Assembly: GCA_037833965.1 (NCBI GenBank)
Contig: AP031353.1
Span: 8,434,501 to 8,498,500, forward strand
Origin: Marchantia polymorpha subsp. ruderalis
Lineage: Eukaryota; Streptophyta; Marchantiopsida; Marchantiales; Marchantiaceae
Length of the DNA stretch: 64,000 bases
Direction: 5' to 3'
The position numbers and the translations under genes were made by a program. Of the stretch, positions 5,330 through 62,600 are shown piece by piece (the stretch's first letter is position 1; the number at the start of each line of letters is the position of its first letter). The notes below the pieces were generated by a model. That model searched no databases and was not told the origin of the DNA. It saw nothing but the letters and a program-made list of their open reading frames with translations.

Positions 5330-7790
5330 TGTAATGACAGACAAATACCAAAATGGAGCATAATGGTACAAATCCGATCCCACGAGGACAGAAACAACCA
5401 CAAAAGTCACAATTTGTCACAGAATAGCATTCTATTAAATAGTTTCACTTCTTAGGCCAATGCCACTCCCAGAAGACACTACCCAGCTAGAGCCGAAGAC
5501 CCGCAGAGTAATGCATAACCACACTCACAGCCTGAAACTTTTCCAATCAACGCTTGTAGGAATCGCTTGCAATTCCACACTTATATTTCAGGGGAAAACT
5601 TCTCAACATTGCATACATCCCGACATACTGACCCGAATACTCATACTTGAACTTGCTTAAATCCCAAGGAGCCTTGACTACTCAGAATATTCAAGCCGAA
5701 TACTCACAACTCCTGATACTTTGACAAACAAGAGCGCACCGTGCTCAATGTCTGGATCACAAACTAGCACACGGACACAGTGGATACAGATTTACAGTCA
5801 AGACAAGCCAATTAACAGAAAAGCCCTCCAAGGAAAGAGTATTGGGTCTCTTTATTCACAACGGCAACTCTGGGATATTAATCGCCTGAGGCGAATCGGT
5901 CTCAGGGGCTGTGCCGTCCGATGTAGCGGTTACGGTGTCATCTGAACTTACATCTACTCCTAGCCTACGCAACACGTTTACAATCTCTTCTTCTACATTC
6001 TGGCTCGCTTCATTCAATTCCTCTGAAAATGTGTTAACTAACTCTACAATATGTTTGTGTCCGGCGGATCCGCTAGTCTTGGCGCTCATCAATCGCCGCT
6101 CGAGCGAATCTAACTTTAGCCACTTCAACGTTTGCAATCCCCACATCGCGAACCCGTTCAGACACTTCTTCAACCGCAACTTCAATCCGTCGGTTGTCTC
6201 GTCCCGCAGATGACGGTAAGCCTCCTCTGTCTTTTCTATTCTCCTTTGCGACTCCTGCGATCTCATGTCCGCCTTACTTAACTGCTCCCGCAACCTTCGA
6301 CATTCCGATTCAACCTTCAATTTACATTCGACCTCCGAAGTTCTGGCCGATTCACAATCTGTCAATTTCTTGGCCCAATTCGCCAATTCCTCCTCATGCT
6401 TCCGGACCCCCTCCGTCAGACTTGCTGATAGCTCCTCCGCAGGTCGGAATTCCGCCTCGCACTTACTCTCAATCTCTGAAACCTTGCGACGAAGATCTTC
6501 TTCCGCCGTCTTCGCCTCTGCAATTTTGTGACTTCTGCCGTCTTCGCCTTTTCACCTCTACGGAATCCCACTCCCTCTTTACTGCCAGTGCTTTCTTGAG
6601 CTGCGTTCTATTTCTTATCATCTCCACATAAAATCCTACCTCCTTGGACACAGCATACTTCTATCTCTTTCCATCTAGATACTTCAGTAATGGAACCAGA
6701 CTATACTGCAAGAAGTCGGGGAAAGAAACGACTAACTCCTTCGGTTCCTTCTGCGAAGTCTTCGTCTCTTCTACCGGCCTCACTTCTCCTGTAGGAGATG
6801 TCATCAATGCACTGTTGTCTAGGGCATCTACCACCGTTACTCCAACCTGTGCAACAATCTGTTCCAGTACTTCGTCGCTTAACATTAGCTCCTTTACCAA
6901 TTCCTCGCTCGTCTTCAGATGTGGTATTTCTTCACTTCCCGTAGTTTGTGTTCGCTCCGAAGACAGAGAATTCGGACTAACTATCTCCATTCCCTCCTTC
7001 AGAGGTTCCGCCAGTGCTTCTGCTGGAACTTCGATCAATACCCCTGAAGATCCTTCCCTCCTCACAAGCTGTGTTGACTCGCCCACTGCGACTTCGAGTG
7101 TACTCACAATCGGGGCAATTGTTCGTTCCACCCGTTCGTTCCCTGTCTCTCGGAACTGAAGAGTGGTCCGTAAGAGAAATCTTTGGTGCGCGTAAGTCCC
7201 ACGCTACTCTTCTCAAACAAAAGGTCTTCGTCGCTACCTTCGCACAGTCCCATCACCTTCGTTCAATGCTCTATTGTCCAGAGCATGGGATTACCTCGAA
7301 GCTCCACACCCTCGGTCTGGTTTTTATCTATTATCTCCTTACAGATACTCGCCGAGACGCAATTCCAATTCCAAAAGAGGAATTCAAGTCGCAACTCGCT
7401 CAGCTCGCGTCTAAAGGGTTGCAATTCTTCGTAGGGCACCTTCATGGGAACCAATTTCCGCACCTTGTCACTCTTCTTCGGCCCCATGACTTTGATTTGC
7501 GTCTTCGCTGCTAGCAAGGTCGGTCAATTTTGCTCTTTCTCTCGCTCGCTCATTCTTGCTCGATATTGCAATGTCGGCGCGAGGACTCCTCGTACTACCC
7601 TTACCCGTGAAGCCCTAACATTGCCTCCTCACGGGCCCACTAGAATTTCCAACGCGTGCGAACGTCTACCGGCCCGTTGCGCGATTCGAAATTGAATCCT
7701 ATGTTTTCGCTGAAGACGCAGCTCTTGCAATGCCCAAAAAGGCGGCACTGGAGATCCGAAGATCTTTGGATTTTCGGACGTAGACGAATT
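5330..7790 (-). mobile_element. Retroelement copy B (minus orientation), broken
   Basis: This is the reverse-complement partner of copy A and is shorter overall by roughly 0.9 kb. On the minus strand it begins at 7790 with the same outer sequence as copy A. It carries the same domain start (GPKKSDKVRKLVP.., FWNWNCVSASICKE), the same charged and coiled-coil region (LLKYLDGKR, GFYVEMIRNRT) and the same LTR-like tail, ending TG/CA at 5330. It is clearly broken, with several breaks. The encoded protein fragments look about 75-85% identical to copy A by eye. Confidence 0.65.
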
Positions 7791-9533: not shown

Positions 9534-12124
9534 CGCCTGCGCACAGGCGGAGAAGTTTTGTCCTATGCGCGGACGAAGGAAGTTCGCCTGTGCACAGGCG
9601 AAATAGGGTTTGAGGTAGGCGCGAAGTTCGCCTACGCACAGGCGTCCGCCTGTGCACAGGCGCTTCGGCGTCGGCGGGAAATCCGCCTTGGGCCCTAGAA
9701 ATGCGCCTTGTGAGGTAGAAAGTGTACGGCGCCTTCTGCGCCAGCGCAGCGCCGCGGACGAGCAAGGAGCCGCCAGAATAGTAAAATCCGTACGGACCGT
9801 ACGGACGGGACGGATGGATGCGCTCTTGGACGGACGGAGTTGCGGCGGCGGAAGCGCCGACGAAGAGACAAGGAACGGACAGTCTGGACGGAGACGGTTG
9901 ACCGCGGTCAACGCCTTCCGCGCCAGCGCGTCGCCGCGGACGGAATTCGCCTACGCACAGGCGAGCGCCTGTGCACAGGAGGATGAAGTTCCGCGCCGGC
10001 GGAGAATCCGCCGAGGAGTCTGCCTGCGCGCAGGCGGGAGTTGAACTTTTGTCCGACATGCGGACACGCGTCGAGGCAGAAGGGGATTGGCTGAGGAGCG
10101 GTACGAACGAGTGTACCGCGCAAGGCGGAAAACTCGCCTTTGGCGCTGCGCACCCATGTCCGCGGTGTAGTACGCTCGCGGAGTTTAAATCCGCCAATTT
10201 GAGCGTGAGAGTTTAATCGGCGACGGCGGAGCGTGAAGCCGCGCGTGAGAGCGGAAACCGTTTCAGCGTAGAGCCGGCGCGGCCATCAATTGAGACGTCC
10301 TCCACGAGCAAGAGCTGACCATGACCTTCGACCGGGCGGCGGAGAGCGTCCCATTCTGGAATTCGCGATTCCATTCTCTAGTGCGAGCTGCGCGCGTCCA
10401 TCTGTTGGCTGCTAAGCCTTCTCGACATCGCCGCGCAGAGGATTTCTTGGTGATTGAGGGAGAAGTAAGTGCGCGTGATTTGGAATTGAGGGCGATTAGA
10501 GTTTGCCGAGGAAGAGAGGAGCTCGAGCGGAGCGGAAGTAGAATGAGCGGGCGGGCGAACTCCAAGAACGCAATGACGAGACCGGGCCGATTGCGGATGC
10601 TGCCGCTCCGTCTACCACAGAACGGGCTGCGCGCTTTCGAGGAGCGCTTGATAGCAAGAAAGCTCGATTTCTTGCTATGGGGATGGAACTACATCTGTGC
10701 GGATATGGTGCGCGAGTGGCTAGAGCCACAGGGACCACCCTCGCGCGGATTGCGTCCGCATGTTGATCGGTGGACAGTCCAAGATTGGGCGCAGGCATTG
10801 GGGAGATGTGCCGGCATGCCAGGGCATCTCCTCTTCGACAGTGAGAGCATCAAGGTGACCAAGCAGGAAGAGGCGCAATTTGTGGAGCTGTTCAAGACCG
10901 AGAGGTCTACCAAGAATGGGTACAGGACCCGCGATTACAAGGATCGATTCCGCCGGACTTTGTCCGCGGCGCTTATGCAATTACTGCAGCCACACCGCGC
11001 CTGCTACATCACGTTGTGGCAGGTCTCTTTTGTGGAGTGCGTCATCGAGGGAACTCCAATTCACAGGGCGAGCATCCTGCACAGGGTGATGCGACAGCAC
11101 GCTTTTGAGGAGAAGGGGGGAACTCTAAACCATCTCTCTCCTTTCCTCATCAATTTTTATCGACAGCGGAATTGTTTGACAGCGGCGGAGCTTGCGCGTT
11201 TTCCGCCGTTGTCCGTCGACCATCCCGGGAAGTATGTGCGGGAGAATGAGGTCGACACTTATGCAGAGGAGTCACCGACTTCTACTCCGTCAAGGCGGAG
11301 GGACGAAGGGAGGAACACTCCTGCAGCACGAGCGCCGCGGAAGCGGCGATGGAGAGAGGAGTCCGAAGAGGAGCAGCATCAAGAACCCTCTGCTCCCATT
11401 CGACCGCTGCCGTTGTACGAGTCATACAGCCGGCCGAAGCAGAAGGCACGCAGACTGGTGTTACCAGCCAACAGCGCGGACACGGCGACGATTGCGACGG
11501 AGAAAGGAAGTGCGTCGCCAGAGAAGAATGAGGAAGCGCGGGCGTCCGCAGGAGCAACGGACCACGCTGCAGCCTCGACGGGCGAGAGGCCGCCTACGGG
11601 CCAAGGGCCTCCGGAGTTACCACGTGCGTTGCGGACAGGTGTTCCGTTTGCGCACAGGCGAGCCTCCGCGGACGGACGACCACAAGCGGACGTAAACCTA
11701 CGCCTACGCGTGGGAAGAAGCAGTCCGCCTGTGCACAGGCGCTCGCCTGTGCACAGGTCACCTCCACACGTGCCGCCTGTGCACAGGCAGGAATCACCCC
11801 CGTTCCAACGTAGGAAGGGGAAGGAGCCGGCGGAAGAGCCGCCTACGAGACACCGGCCTTCGGGGCCAGACCCTCCGGCGCACAACGCGCCGCGATTTGC
11901 GCCTTCGGCGCCAGGGCCTTCGAGCCGAGGAGATACGAGCAGGGAGCGTGCGGAGGCCGCATCATCGGCGGGTAATCCGCCGGTAGATGCGCCTTCGGCG
12001 GTAGGGCCTCAGGGCCAAGGAACATCGGGCGAGCGGCCCCCGGCCATGTCGCCTTTGGCGATGGACGTCCGCGGCGCTACGCCTGCGGCGGACAAGGCGC
12101 CGGCATTTGCGCCTGCGCACAGGC
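9534..12124. repeat. Dispersed palindrome family CGCCTGTGCACAGGCG
   Basis: Exact copies of the 16-bp palindrome are at 9585-9600 (extended to a 20-bp palindrome, 9583-9602), 9647-9662 and 11726-11741. Near copies are at 9534-9549, 9629-9644, 9948-9963, 9966-9979, 10022-10035, 11744-11757, 11774-11788 and 12110-12124, with a half copy at 11651-11660. Two are paired modules with 2-bp spacing (9629-9662 and 9948-9979), and a third pair lies at 11726-11757. Copies occur both in the leader and inside ORF1, where they are read as P-V-H-R-R/S repeats. Density is about eleven in 2.6 kb, and I see none elsewhere in the window. Confidence 0.9.
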
Positions 12125-12486
12125 CAAGCACAGCCCCCGCGGACCGATCAAGGGAGCAGCAACAGGCGGAGGAGCGGAGTGACTGTCCGCGGGATGAAAT
12201 TTCGGTGCGCGATGCGCAATCAAACCCCGCGCAGCCACCCTCCGCTCAATCGCCTTCGGCGGCGGACGTCGGCGGCAGAGAGGATACGGTAGACGACCAA
12301 CAAGCGGGCGGCGGGGATGCAGCACGGGCACATTCGCCTACCGCCTTAGACATTTTGGCGAAGAGCAGCGAGGCTGCAGCAGTGCCTTCGCAGGCAGCAC
12401 ACGTCGACGACGTGCAGCCCCACTCGGGTCAGTCGCCGACGCAATCAATGGCGACTGAAATTCTCCACTCGGATGATGACGACTGA
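10321..12486 (+). CDS. Element C ORF1: conserved element domain plus proline/charge-rich linker
   Basis: The frame has 721 codons from ATG at 10321. An alternative ATG at 10543 sits closer to the conserved part. Residues about 95-300 hold the domain shared with copies A and B: FLLWGWN, WTVQDWAQALGRCAG, LLFDSESI, the basic NGYRTRDYKD, YITLWQVSF, HLSPFLINFYR and LARFP. The rest, about 400 residues, is low-complexity, rich in Pro, Ala, Arg and Glu, and carries palindrome-encoded PVHRR repeats. There is no zinc knuckle or enzyme motif. The spacing of conserved aromatic and basic residues might fit a gag-like or 'putative plant transposon protein' domain, but that is a guess. ORF2 follows 15 bp downstream. 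Confidence 0.6.
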   Translation: MTFDRAAESVPFWNSRFHSLVRAARVHLLAAKPSRHRRAEDFLVIEGEVSARDLELRAIRVCRGREELERSGSRMSGRANSKNAMTRPGRLRMLPLRLPQNGLRAFEERLIARKLDFLLWGWNYICADMVREWLEPQGPPSRGLRPHVDRWTVQDWAQALGRCAGMPGHLLFDSESIKVTKQEEAQFVELFKTERSTKNGYRTRDYKDRFRRTLSAALMQLLQPHRACYITLWQVSFVECVIEGTPIHRASILHRVMRQHAFEEKGGTLNHLSPFLINFYRQRNCLTAAELARFPPLSVDHPGKYVRENEVDTYAEESPTSTPSRRRDEGRNTPAARAPRKRRWREESEEEQHQEPSAPIRPLPLYESYSRPKQKARRLVLPANSADTATIATEKGSASPEKNEEARASAGATDHAAASTGERPPTGQGPPELPRALRTGVPFAHRRASADGRPQADVNLRLRVGRSSPPVHRRSPVHRSPPHVPPVHRQESPPFQRRKGKEPAEEPPTRHRPSGPDPPAHNAPRFAPSAPGPSSRGDTSRERAEAASSAGNPPVDAPSAVGPQGQGTSGERPPAMSPLAMDVRGATPAADKAPAFAPAHRPSTAPADRSREQQQAEERSDCPRDEISVRDAQSNPAQPPSAQSPSAADVGGREDTVDDQQAGGGDAARAHSPTALDILAKSSEAAAVPSQAAHVDDVQPHSGQSPTQSMATEILHSDDDD

Positions 12487-38600: not shown

Positions 38601-40820
38601 GGGGCTCGAGAACTGAAATGTTAACATCCTCTCCCTTCCTCTCATCGACATCTTCTTCATCAACACAGGGCTTGAACATGACCAGTGTTCAGTAAACATT
38701 ATAATTGGGGTTGTAACAGCGTTCTTCCATGATATAAGTGTTCAGACGAAATTATTTCACTTAAATGTCAAGAGCACGGGAAGTAGGAGTTTAGGACATA
38801 CCTTTCTCCAAAACTATTGTAAATATGAACATCAAACATATTTTAATATTTTAACATGAAAATAAATCACAAGCATATGCAATGTTTATCATTTATACCG
38901 TGTATATTTTATAAATAATCTATACGTTTTTTCAAAGCTTCTAGAAAAATTCATTTATACACTACGTGAATTCTTGTTATTTAAAGATCATGAATGCTAC
39001 ATTGAAAGTTTGGCTTAAACTTCTCGAGGTAATGCAAACGATAAAACTCAGAATAGACCATCAGCATTCAATTTACGCCATCAATTTTTGCGAGGCTATG
39101 TCTACAAGTATACAAAGTTTTACTTATAAAAAACTACTATATGGCTTATAGACCTTGAACCAGTTTGTTTTATATCGCAGTAGCTAACATTGTTAAACTA
39201 ACAACTGTGAATGAAAATATGAAGTTAAATTCAAGAAATACAATGTGTAAATACCAAAATATCATTTTCCAATAAAACAAAAAATAAATAGTGATATAAC
39301 TTGATAACCTAATCATATTAAACTTGGATGATATATTAGATATATTTTAGATAATATAGAAATTTATAGTTATTAAATACACTCATTAACATTCTGAAAA
39401 TACTTCAGAATAATTTGACTAGGATTCAAATGCAAATTTTGTGGAACTTCATATTAATTTTCAGATCAATAACTTAAATTTTATATTTTGTTTATTTGGT
39501 GAAATACTGCAAGTTATGGCATTCCAGTCTTATTTTTCCTCGACATATAATTAATATAAATTTTATAAAAAAATTGGCATGATATTAGATGTCAGATGAA
39601 AATGGATAACTGTAGTTCCATTCACAAAATTATTTTAAAAGAATTGTTTTACTACGAGGTATTTCTCTACAGTTATCAGAATGAAATTATTTCTTAGAGC
39701 ATGGAAGTATATATGCACATTTAACAATGTAACTCCATATGTAGATTGCTTGGATATCAATATTTGATTTCTAACATGACAAGATTTTAAAAATTTTTGG
39801 GAGCAAATGTTAGCAGATTTTAGATAACATTTTGGAAAGAAATCCGTATGACATATATCATTGCAAGCTTTAACGAAACAGTGGTTCACATCACAGATAA
39901 TAATTCGGTAATTATATTCACATTTAGAAAAAACGCTTGATAGTTCTATTAAAACAATATATGCAAAAATAAGTTTCTTAAAATTTTCTTAAACAAAAAA
40001 TATTTGTTCTTCATTTTTAGATAAATACACAGATTGTGAAAACGAGGTCTATTTTAATTGCATTTGTTTGTCATGCAATTTTTGAGCATACAATATAGAA
40101 AGTCATTCACAAAGCCGAGTCTAACAAATGGACAAACTCGTATTGCACGTAGAAAACTATGTTGGAGCGAGTGTAAAAGTCAAACGAGTCTCCATGAAAA
40201 CATTGAAAAAACTTATAGAGATAATCGGAAACAAATAACTAGAAGAATAAACCAACAGATAGAACGCACATTTGTGGCGATGACTTTCATAATTCGTAAG
40301 AACTCATTTACTTTGTTCCATCCGGATATATGCTGAAAACAATGTCAATACTCCGTGAGCTCAAACAAGAACAACAAGCTATTAATAAACCGACTAGTTT
40401 GTACTCTACCTGAAGATGTTTGGTCTCTTGTTCTTGTTTGAACGAAGAAGCCAGTCGTGGTGACAAACGGCTGCATAGACTCGCAATCAATCGCAAGACT
40501 TCGTCACGACAGATGGGATGGCTTTTGAACACGGAACGTGATGAAGGTGAAAAGCGGAAAAGCGAAGTGCGAGTACGGTAACTGGGTGAAACACGCACTT
40601 AATAGTGTCGAGCGCAGCATGCAATAAGAAGAAGCCGATGGCACACGGAAAAATGCACCATTGGGCAGCGAACGAGGAAAGCTGGTTCAGAGATGCCCAT
40701 GTTAGAATTTCAAACGGTGATGATTGTGCTAATCCCTCCTGGAGGAGGGACCCTTCATAAAGTCAAAGAGATCTTTGTCCTATCGTGGTTGTGTTTTTCC
40801 CACCTTTCGCTCTAATTCGG
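29680..40820. other. AT-rich, gene-poor block
   Basis: About 11 kb between MCM5 and the F-box gene, with runs of very high AT content (about 29.7-31.6 and 36.7-40.1 kb). Every frame longer than 60 codons was examined. None gives a recognisable domain, and none shows a convincing exon-intron series. The middle (about 32-36.2 kb) is less AT-rich and may hold old transposon debris. A transcript of non-coding type cannot be excluded. Confidence 0.6.
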
Positions 40821-40835
40821 TCAAAGGGTGCGTCG

Positions 40836-40896
40836 AGCGAGGCGAGGCGAGGCGAGGCCAGGGCAAGGCAAAGGCAAGGGCAAGGGCAAGGCAAAG
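40836..40896. repeat. Low-complexity GCGAG / GGGCAA tandem tract
   Basis: Four to five GGCGA units are followed by imperfect (A)GGGCAAGGCAA units. It lies about 0.9 kb upstream of the F-box gene start, in a purine-rich stretch that continues to about 41190. It may be part of the gene's promoter or leader. Confidence 0.8.
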
Positions 40897-41477
40897 TTAA
40901 GCGAACTATTTCGTCAACAGGAGGCAGCGCGAGCGAGAGCCCCCAGAGATAGGGGGCAAGCGTCCGAGCGGTCCGAGGCAAGAGGAGGCAGGGGAGGAGG
41001 CGAGACTAATAAGAGGGCGCTGGAGAGGATGAGCGAGACGAAATGACCGGGCTGCGGTCCCATGGAGGAGCGCCGGGGCGAGGTCGCGGCGAGGCCGAGG
41101 AGGGAGGGATTAAAAGATGAGGCATTTTGGCTAGGTTTGGGCCCGCGGGGGTCGGGCGAGGGAGGAGGAGGAGGAGGAGGGCGAGGGCTAATTTCGCGAT
41201 TTGTCGAGCATTACCGGGAAGAGCATGGCGAGGTTTGGGCAATAAAAGCGGAATATTAAGTGCGGAATATATGGCTCCTCATAACTTTCAATCAGTAAGA
41301 ATCTTGACCGCGAACCTACTAGGGGTTTCAGACATCCGCCTTTTCCGAGGAGTTGTTCGCACAAGAGTTACTGCAGACAAGCGTCTGGATGCGGAGCGAG
41401 ACCTCTGATTGAGTTGGTTGCCAAGTTGGTAGCTGTTAGTTGGCGAGGTGTCAAGGGATGTGGGATAGATCGCACTT

Positions 41478-41683
41478 TTGAGTACAGTGCTCAACTAGTC
41501 CTCGAAGACCTGTGCCGCGTTGATCAAAAGCTGCTTCGTGTATTCTTCACTTCGAGAGCAGAAGTGAAGAATACACGAAGACGTAGACTGGTCCTTCAAG
41601 GTCTACATATGTCGTTCTATATGTAGACCTCGAAGCTCAAACCTAACGTGTGACCGATCAGGTTTTCTCTAACCTGATCGGTC
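41478..41683 (+). promoter_or_regulatory. Array of four stem-loops in the presumed 5' leader of the F-box gene
   Basis: Near-palindrome TTGAGTAC-A-GTGCTCAA lies at 41478-41494. A perfect 20-bp stem (CTTCGTGTATTCTTCACTTC, 41534-41553, with complement 41561-41580) has a 7-nt loop. A 17-bp stem with one mismatch (41594-41610 with 41619-41635) has an 8-nt loop. A perfect 13-bp stem (GACCGATCAGGTT, 41652-41664, with 41671-41683) has a 6-nt loop. The arms are unrelated in sequence to one another, yet the stem starts are 56, 60 and 58 nt apart. A weaker CAGAC-AAGC-GTCTG stem precedes them at 41374-41387. The array ends 91 nt before the proposed start codon at 41775. Confidence 0.75.
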
Positions 41684-41774
41684 GTCCCTCAAGTAGTGAG
41701 AGAATCGAGCAGGGATTGTTGTGTCGAGCTGTCGGTCTAACCTCGAGGGAAAGCCCGGACAATCTTGGTTGGAA

Positions 41775-43153
41775 ATGCCGTTAAGCAACAACGTATGTAA
41801 GCTGCATAAATCGTTTCGGCTTGCGTTCTAGGTCTCGAGCAATGTTTGCGTTCGCGTGCCGAAGATCTGTGTGTCTGACTGGCGTGGTGATTTTTGAAAT
41901 GGCAGGTTGAGACTGCAGCCTGCTACTGCGGTGTGGACGCAGGTTTGGCCGTGGGCGCCCGGAAGTTTGTACCGACTGTAGGCCACTGCGTCCGCCCGGA
42001 CATAAAATCCGCTATAGTTCTGCCGAAGAGCAAACCTTCGAAAGGGGATCGTCACAAATTGCCATCCGAGCTCCTGCCGGGGCTTCCCGATGATCTAGCT
42101 ATCGCCTGCCTAATCAGAGTTCCTCGGATACACCACAGGAAGTTGAGGATCGTTTGCAAACGATGGTATCGTCTCCTTGCGGGCAACTACTTTTACTCCC
42201 TCCGCAGCCGCTTGGGTATGGCTGAGGAATGGATATATGTCATCAAGCGCGATCGGGATGGACGCATTTCATGGCACGCATTTGACCCTCGGCATCAGCA
42301 ATGGCAACCTCTGCCTCCGGTTCCTGTGGAGTACGGCGAAGCGCTCGGTTTCGGGTGTGCCGTTCTCAGCGGGTGCCACCTCTATCTGTTTGGCGGTAAG
42401 GACCCCATGAAGGGCTCCATGAGACGCGTAGTGTATTATAGTGCTCGCACCAACAAGTGGCATCGAGCCCCCGATATGCAAAGGCGGCGTCATTTCTTTG
42501 GGTGTTGTGTCATAAATAACTGCCTCTACGTCGCTGGCGGGGAATGTGAGGGGATTCACCGTTCTCTCAGATCAGCCGAAGTTTATGATCCTAACAAGGC
42601 CAAGTGGTCTTTTATATCGGAGATGAGCACTGCCATGGTGCCGTTCATTGGCGTCGTATACGGCGGAAGATGGTTTTTGAAGGGTCTTGGTTCTCATAGG
42701 CAAGTGATGAGCGAAGTATACGTTCCGGCGACCAATCACTGGTCTCCTATCATAGATGGCATGGTCGCGGGATGGAGAAATCCGAGTGCGTCTCTGAATG
42801 GCGAATTGTATGCCTTGGACTGCCGAGACGGGTGCAAGCTCCGCATGTATGATCGAACTAGTGATGCATGGAGCCGGTCTGTCGACAGTAGGCTTCATTT
42901 AGGAAACTCACGAGCAATGGAAGCAGCTGCCTTGTTGCCTCTCGGAGGGAAACTTTGCGTTATTCGAAATAATATGAGCATCACTCTGGTGGATGTAGCC
43001 AAGGCAGATGACCCTACTAGACAGACGCATCTGTGGGAGACGATTGCAGGAAAAGGGCAGTTTATGACTTTTGTTACCAACTTATGGTCGAACTTGGCCG
43101 GTCGAAACCGTCTAAAGAGCCACATTGTACACTGCCAAGTTCTTCAAGCGTAA
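41775..43153 (+). CDS. F-box/kelch-repeat protein, At1g55270-type
   Basis: Proposed CDS joins 41775-41792 and 41906-43153, giving 421 residues. The large exon has an in-frame stop just upstream (41888) and lacks its own ATG at the right place. Acceptor GGCAG at 41901-41905 joins in phase to a tiny first exon, ATG + five codons, with donor GTATGT at 41793. The segment VETAACYC.VDAGLAVGARKFVP matches the N-terminal region of the Arabidopsis At1g55270 protein. The F-box is at about residues 62-105 (LLPGLPDDLAIACLIRVPR, KLRIVCKRWYRLL). Kelch repeats follow from about 150 (LYLFGGKD, LYVAGGEC, AEVYDPNKAKW, GMVAGWRNP, LRMYDRTSDAW). The C-terminus is SHIVHCQVLQA. As an F-box protein it should be the substrate receptor of an SCF ubiquitin ligase. 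The Arabidopsis relative, which I recall as SAGL1, is linked to wax and phenylpropanoid control. The short first exon is inferred. Confidence 0.9.
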
Positions 43154-59600: not shown

Positions 59601-62600
59601 TGAGCCTGCACTTCTTCCTTTGCATCCCCTGCATTTCCTGCTCTGATCTAAAATACACGTTCTTAAAGAATGAGTTGCTTTGCATCGATCAGGTGGTTTG
59701 TGATGAGGCACAATTCAAGGATGCGAGGAAGTTCCTATCAGCACATCTTGCTGATCCCGATGTCGAGGTAAGTGGGCTGCACGTAATTTTTGTGAGTTGG
59801 ATAGCTTCATGTGAGCTTGCAGGCATCTTGTTTCAAATTACTTGTCTCCGTTACCCCAAGGCCGTAGAGTAAGCAGCACTGGAGAGTAAAAGAAACAACT
59901 GAGCCAGAAGAAGGTTTTCTTATCGAAAGAACATCATGCGAATGAGTTTGCCGCCTTCTGACTGTGTGCGCTTCAAATCCAGGGAGTCTACGAAACTAAA
60001 ATCAGTCCCTTGCAACAAGCAATACTACGATTAGGTTGTGTCTGTACCGTGGATGCGAAAGCCAGCAAACGAAACGCCAATGCCACTTGGTCTGTTGATG
60101 AGCTACATATGAAAACAACGGCAGAATCCGCGTACCTGAAGGTTGCTTTGAATTCTTTCTTTATTTATCAAAGGTTCGTTCGTGACACTCTCTCAACCCA
60201 TGGTCTTAATTGATATCTGCATATCTGGGACGTCCGTGCCTGGATACAAGTCCAATGTTCGAGTCCCGGATGGGAGTCATTCTCTTGACCCCAAGAAGAG
60301 CAAGATGATGAACAACCCCTCCCCTTACACCCTGTGGTGTAGAGATTATCCATTTCGTCATATCTTTACCAGCAGCCCTTCAGTCAGATGTAGAGAGACT
60401 CTATACCATATCTCTGTCAGCTCGTATAGCCAAGAACGAACTCACATAGTCAGGCCTAGCTTCAAAGACCGAAGCTGCTACTCTTGGATTCGAACCTCTT
60501 TAGCTAGATGAGCCAGTAAAGCTATTCTTGTTGCTTTACGGGCTCATCCAGTAAAGCAACAAGGATGCGGCGAACTATGCTTATCTATGGGGAGATGTCT
60601 TACAAAAACACATACAATCTTCACTCCAATATATCCCTCTCATCTTCTGCTTCCCTTTTCATCTCATCTTGCTATTGCTTCCCAGTCTTTTACTGCTCGC
60701 AACCCGCAGCTAAGCGAGGAGTCTTCAGCTTATAACAGGCTATCAGAAACGATTAAGAATTATCAGAAGTCACTGCGCCACTTCTTGGATATTTCATAAA
60801 TTCTGTGGTTGCTGATAGTACCCGTCCTTCACAATCCCCATGTACACGAGTGTCATGTGTTATATATATCTTTCTGAATGTCATTTTTAGCTTTCGACAT
60901 GATTTATCTTCACTATTTCGTTGGCCTTAGCTCAAATGTTTATGCCGTACGCTTTTTCGACCCAGAGCTAGTGATGGAGGAGTTTACTGGCCGATGACGT
61001 ACACAAATGTCCTGAAAAATAGGAGTATCACTTGGCGCGTATTTGTTTATTATAATTATTGAGTTGTATCGTTGGAATGTTATCCCCGAGAAAGATTCTC
61101 TCTGTATTAGGAATTTAAGGCTCCAGGAGCTGCATTGTCAAACCTTCTGACCCAACGCGAACCTGTTGCGTCAGTTGCATGAATACGCGAGGACTGTATA
61201 CTCTGTACACACCTGCCGCTGAGAAGATCCTGGTGGTGGTGGTTAATCCTCGCAACAATAAGGAAGTCTCTTCAGTGCAACTTGAGAAGCAATTTCGAGA
61301 CGCTGCCAGCAACTCTGGCCTGTCAAATCATGAGGTCTCAACTTGGACGGTCAAGGTAAGCATTGTTTACAGATTCAAGCAGAGAACGCATACTGTAGGG
61401 AGAGATTGACAATTAGAACCATCAATGAGAATGGCTTAATATTACAAATAGCTTTCTGCTTTCCACCGACATGGTCGGTATAACAATGCTGCAATTGAGG
61501 CTGAGTGAAAGTTACTGTCAAAATATCGATATTTCTGCCGAAATCGGTAAAGAATGACAAAAATGACTTCGGGTTAGGGCAAACTGAAGCAATCTAAGCG
61601 GCACCAAAAGGAAATCAATTTCAGTCTTAGTTGAATGCTTTTCATCTGCAATGATACTATTAACGTCTAGTTCATTGGCCAACAAACAACTAGTGTCTCA
61701 GTCAGCATCTAATATTCTTCTGGCAGGTTGAGTATTTATCCAGCCATCAAGACGCCGGAAGACTGCTAAATCGGAGTTTGGTTGAGTTCAGGTTAGTAAC
61801 GTCACTTTTGCACACTGCGTTTCAGAGAATTGTCCAGGAGCTTAAAATTGGTATTCGAGAACATAGGGATCAACAAAACCGGCCAAAACCTTGGACCTGA
61901 CGACACAACGGTTGGTTTTTCGCTTGTAGGGATCAGCATCCAGGTCCCACCGTTGCACTTACTCAGTGCCCCAACACTGAGGATCTCATGGCCATCGTTC
62001 CCCTGCTCAACGAGTTCCCGTGTGTGCAGATCCCCTGCAATGTCCGCGATAGTCAGTACCAGGTACGATACAGATGTAATGTATGCCACTCAGTTGTCCT
62101 TATGGTGGCAGTGATGTTGCTGTTTTTCAAAAGCACGAGTAGTGACTATTTGTAAGGCCGCTGCTTCTTCATAAAGTGGTGAAACTTGTGGTTGAGCTGT
62201 TTGAGAAACTTGTGCTTTCCTGTGATCACTTCCGAGCTAACTTTGATATCTCATTTGGAGAAACAGGCTCTTGGCTGGCAACCCATTGCAGGAAGAGTTG
62301 CAATGCACAGGTGTGTTGCTTCGTCTGTCTGGTTACAAGAAAGAATCTCTCTCGCCCGATACGCTCACGTGAGTTCCCACCAAGATCAGTCTCAAATAAT
62401 TGGTTTTCACTCGCTGAGGTTTTTGGAAGCAGCAAGAAAATACCTTTTTCAATGGAATTTTTACATTTTGGTTACTGTGTCCGCAGGTTCCGCTAGGAAA
62501 CGTTGACTCTGATTGGCTTCTGTTTACAGCCGACACATTCTATTCACGCGCTTTGCGTGAAAATCAGCAGGTACCTCCAATTCTAACAAGCCAGGCTTTC

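Follow-up and report, generated by a model that had tools for sequence, protein, structure and literature searches.

Upstream of a gene for an F-box/kelch protein, we identified an array of three hairpins (H2, H3, and H4), which is probably a cluster of short inverted repeats with perfect arms, each of which arose by an inverted templated copying error (Table 1). The array lies in the window, i.e., the whole 64-kb stretch of DNA analyzed here (G000:C4:8434501-8498500), which is part of a genome of 241.47 Mb in 9 contigs. The initial annotation of this region had proposed translational control, with repeated template switches as an alternative. This mutational alternative is better supported than the regulatory reading because the sampled parts of the genome are rich in perfect hairpins and because two hairpins elsewhere in the genome could be recognized as new by comparison with sister repeat copies. 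We consider the regulatory reading a weak possibility.

Table 1. Hairpins, upstream open reading frames (ORFs), and exons in and around the array (window coordinates)
Feature	Position	Strand	Description
Upstream ORF	41271-41408	+	45 codons; from sequence only
Upstream ORF	41389-41412	+	From sequence only
Short upstream ORF	41458..41481	+	7 codons; ends at H1; from sequence only
H1, weak 7-8 bp hairpin	41478..41494	+	One G.U pair; 1-nt loop; probably chance
H2, perfect 20-bp inverted repeat	Arms 41534-41553/41561-41580	.	100%; loop 7 nt
H3, 17-nt arms	Arms 41594-41610/41619-41635	.	94%; loop 8 nt; a single A.C mismatch at a CpG/CpA site
Upstream ORFs within H3	41609-41626 and 41621-41626	+	From sequence only
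H4, perfect 13-bp inverted repeat	Arms 41652-41664/41671-41683	.	100%; loop 6 nt
Predicted first coding exon	41775..41792	+	ATG, 6 codons; joins in frame to exon at 41906
Predicted intron	41793..41905	+	GTATGT...GGCAG, GT...AG; inferred from splice signals
F-box/kelch coding exon	41906..43153	+	415 aa plus stop; F-box E 1.9e-6, Kelch_1 E 1.5e-27

The region had been described as four perfect stem-loops. When each hairpin was folded alone as RNA, H2, H3, and H4 reached −31.4, −21.3, and −22.3 kcal/mol, respectively, and 0 of 200 shuffles folded as well for each of them. H1 reached −4.7 kcal/mol and was equaled by 4 of 200 shuffles. Using a loose definition that fits H1 (at least 8 bp, G.U pairs allowed, loop of up to 8 nt), we counted 202 hairpins in the 64-kb window, corresponding to 1 per 316 nt. 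H1 is at chance level, and we, therefore, count the array as having three members. The arms of H2-H4 are near-perfect adjacent inverted pairs with short spacers, and 49 of the 50 pairs match; perfection holds for H2 and H4, while H3 has its mismatch and H1 requires the G.U pair. With one mismatch in 50 pairs, H2-H4 appear to be young. The H3 mismatch, which is A.C on the + strand, would be a G.U pair in RNA from the − strand and resembles the decay of a CpG site. The even spacing of 56-60 nt noted initially is true of the arm starts only; the hairpin centers are ~71, 57.5, and 53 nt apart, and as two intervals are left once H1 is dropped, we do not regard the evenness of the spacing as a significant feature.

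The initial statement that the arms are unrelated in sequence is largely borne out. In pairwise local alignments of four 60-nt pieces around H1-H4, five of the six pairs were at the level of shuffles, and the lowest p-type values based on mononucleotide shuffles were 0.01 (H1-H3, a weak similarity in one of six tests), 0.06 (H3-H4), and 0.07 (H1-H4). On this basis, a hidden tandem repeat was rejected. The only exact matches to the H2 arm in the genome are its own two arms; allowing for 2-3 mismatches, there are 34 further places compared with 26 for a reversed control.

The perfect stems were initially considered very unlikely to occur by chance. Compared to random sequence, this is correct: a Markov null of the window gave ~0.07 perfect hairpins of at least 12 bp per 64 kb (60 simulations). 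Compared to the sampled genome, single hairpins are unremarkable. Our background sample is non-random and comprises 9 loci with kelch matches, 6 loci with partial matches to the H2 arm, 4 stretches of 10 kb from one 5.6-Mb contig, and the window. In the 19 loci outside the window (91,969 bases), we found 11 rows with stems of at least 12 bp and loops of up to 20 nt, two of which overlap (at L016). In 155,969 bases, from which the array had been masked, we counted non-overlapping hairpins with loops of up to 15 nt and a minimum of three different letters per arm. With stems of at least 12 bp, there were 10 hairpins and 3 mirror repeats, while each of two nonsense pairings gave 0. For stems of at least 8 bp in the same bases, the corresponding numbers were 88 hairpins, 55 mirror repeats, and 39 and 23 nonsense pairings, and the hairpin excess is, therefore, smaller for short stems. 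Thus, single perfect hairpins occur frequently in the parts of the genome that we sampled, with a rate of ~1 per 14 kb. An excess of perfect inverted repeats over shuffles was also found in a genome-wide survey, in which Streptophyta had the largest inverted-repeat effect among the eukaryotes studied (PMC13155455). Unlike our analysis, that survey splits repeats by spacers of 0-8 bp, and the word Marchantia is absent from its main text.

In dispersed repeats, the birth of a hairpin can be seen by comparing sister copies from a single genome, and a mutational origin can, therefore, be tested without a second species. We searched the genome for copies of eight hairpin stretches outside the array, i.e., seven stretches and the row of hairpins at L023; sample hairpins outside this search include those in L008, L020, L022, and at window position 11728. 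Five of the eight stretches (L016, L017, L024:1456, L024:5676, and window 60507) matched only themselves, and three (L015, L023:6102, and L023:9570) are in dispersed repeats. For these three, we compared 4 of 13 other rows, 4 among the 40 other rows listed, and 5 of 9 other rows, respectively. At L023:6102-6133, the right arm has 11-14 matches of 14 in all four compared sisters, with ~77-80% over the whole stretch. The left arm is replaced in all four by unrelated sequence (5-6 matches of 13-14) that is alike among the sisters. At L023:9570-9609, ~20 nt containing the left arm is absent from all five compared sisters, and this arm exactly reproduces, as a reverse complement, the right arm as it reads in L023. 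By parsimony, the difference would be a gain in L023 rather than a loss shared by the sisters. The sisters are without the left arm, and this arm repeats its neighbor in reverse complement; we, therefore, conclude that both L023 hairpins were born by inverted copying (a template-switch or fold-back error). Accordingly, as judged from these sequence comparisons, two of the three hairpins that could be compared with sisters originated in this way within the very copy in which they are found.

The third hairpin, at L015, is a caution against the copying-error reading, as are the facts that the sisters compared are part of the listed copies and that the background sample is non-random. In the L015 family, the hairpin was present in the family ancestor and is not a new birth; it can be recognized in all five copies that we compared, with full pairing in two (G000:C2:2262675-2263075 and relatives). 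One position of the stem is A-T, T-A, and C-G in three copies. The pair counts in L015 showed no excess over shuffles (100 of 500 shuffles were at least as high), and we, therefore, dropped covariation as a sign of maintained stems. With ~1 hairpin per 14 kb in the sample and two of three comparable ones attributable to copying errors, perfect hairpins close to plant genes, even energetically striking ones, are not necessarily regulatory.

We propose that, during replication or break repair, a growing 3' end would fold back on its own strand, or switch strand, a few nucleotides away. The folded-back end would copy 13-20 nt of neighboring sequence as the reverse complement and then return, and each event would leave perfectly paired arms with a sequence of their own around a loop of ~6-8 nt. 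We infer that H2, H3, and H4 originated by such errors; the ancestral state was seen for hairpins elsewhere in the genome. According to published reports, template switches can create perfect stems in a single event (PMC8794818), and template switching at forks yields the same hairpin product (PMC8794818, PMC7954356). Like the hairpins described there, H2-H4 have adjacent perfect reverse-complement arms that are unrelated between events and could each be made in one step, and two births were found in this genome. Unlike those hairpins, the three studied here lie side by side in a probable leader. The array also resembles the insertions made by fold-back or polymerase theta. Inverted templated insertions of 3-30 bp are reported for mammalian cells and a 6-nt loop as the most favorable in Drosophila (PMC11292364), while fold-back insertions in yeast are mostly 5-34 bp with a loop of 41 nt (PMC11724301). 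The array loops of 6-8 nt and the copied lengths of 13-20 nt fall within the range of these reports. The genome encodes family A polymerase domains at two places (three of seven exon matches were above the cut-off), which could be of the theta or the organellar type. The events may have taken place at forks or at breaks.

For independent hairpins with a Poisson distribution, we set the rate manually to 11 per 155,700 bases and estimated how often triples should occur within 150-206 nt. The expectation is 2.5e-4 to 4.8e-4 such triples in each 64-kb window, or ~1-2 genome-wide. Three hairpins within 150 nt are, therefore, rare and above the Poisson expectation for a single window. Nevertheless, with ~1-2 triples expected genome-wide, such an array is uncommon yet within reach of independent events once or twice per genome. 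The only other close pair of separate hairpins in the sample is at L023 9530-9609. It is conceivable, and in our view rather unlikely, that H2, H3, and H4 were made at once by consecutive fold-backs in one repair or replication episode, and that such a hairpin array is a mutation signature that recurs in the genome. If so, a plain leader would have become strongly structured in one step, supplying raw material from which translational control could arise. As comparisons for this idea, we offer the hairpin row at L023 and two compound copies, one at L016 and one at window 60507. Specifically, L016:2913-2973 (G000:C2) is a compound A-A'-A inverted copy with a perfect 24-bp stem, and window 60507-60563 contains overlapping hairpins of the compound A-A'-A kind; no other genome copy was found of either. 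Both look like the products of serial fold-backs, two successive ones at L016.

The F-box/kelch protein is 34% identical to its closest other match in the genome and presumably resembles Arabidopsis At1g55270/SAGL1. H2-H4 span from 241 to 91 nt before the predicted AUG at 41775 and, thus, probably lie within the mRNA leader of the gene. No match to the TATAWAW pattern was found from 39714 to 42610. A scan for bacterial-type promoters and terminators found nothing and is not applicable to a plant. In the titles and abstract openings of the papers listed, we found no mention of hairpins at this gene.

If transcribed, the H2-H4 stems would burden scanning ribosomes. H2-H4 could be a functional structured mRNA leader, in which stable hairpins after upstream AUGs slow scanning and hold translation of the F-box protein down until helicases open them, similar to the uAUG-ds leaders of Arabidopsis. 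We regard this explanation as unlikely. It is consistent with the position of H2-H4 and with the upstream AUGs at 41271, 41389, 41458, 41609, and 41621, the last two of which are inside H3. Moreover, the region folds strongly, with a z of −9.4 for 236 nt of the + strand; however, folding of the − strand is equally strong or stronger (z of −10.5), and the H3 mismatch pairs (as G.U) on the − strand only. Because the − strand is no weaker in its folding, the sequence gives no sign that RNA of the + strand is the selected form. The uAUG-ds mechanism exists in plants, and hairpins after upstream AUGs in Arabidopsis leaders reportedly act as a switch, with most of them starting within 25 nt (PMC10499604). 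The array is similar in having stable stems after upstream AUGs in what is probably a plant leader. It differs in that its first strong stem is further from an upstream AUG than most of those reported: weak H1 begins 20 nt after the AUG at 41458, the nearest one upstream of H2, and H2 76 nt after it. Also, comparable hairpins occur frequently in the parts of the genome sampled. Of the initial suggestion of translational control, an IRES-like element, or a protein platform, position and folding energy stand and nothing beyond these, and no Rfam model matched at gathering score in the 64-kb window. A role of H2-H4 in translation is possible but unsupported. Under the copying-error reading, H2-H4 would be leader passengers that may or may not dampen translation.

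Two further explanations were considered. It seems improbable that the array is a now single-copy relic of a mobile or repeated element with built-in hairpins. A precedent is provided by the L023 repeat family, in which hairpins are lined up ~50 nt apart and two can be recognized in sisters; by contrast, the 401-nt array region matched only itself in a genome search that skips very common words, and a dispersed element was rejected on this basis. Furthermore, its similarity to three L023-family members was at shuffle level in five of six comparisons, the sixth (L035, + strand) giving 0.02. We consider it highly improbable that the hairpins are clustered precursors of small RNAs cut by a Dicer-like enzyme. 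Near-perfect stems in tandem would fit such a cluster, but stems of 13-20 bp are too short, the longest (20 bp) making a hairpin of 47 nt in all, and the window has no Rfam match. A plant miRNA precursor requires a 21-nt duplex plus a basal or flanking stem; with a longest stem of 20 bp and no Rfam match, this candidate was rejected.

In addition to the features described above, we made two minor observations. The dispersed repeat at L023:9530-9649 (G000:C1:4009530-4009649) belongs to a family that carries a row of unrelated hairpins; two of these are recognizable in sisters with varied decay, one is new in the L023 copy, and the third hairpin of the row, of 8 bp, is at 9629-9649. Within the window, the long open frames at 178-1374 and 10294-12486 are related (33% over 265 aa) and had no Pfam match at E 0.01, and similar-looking open frames are present on the − strand at 5856-7203.
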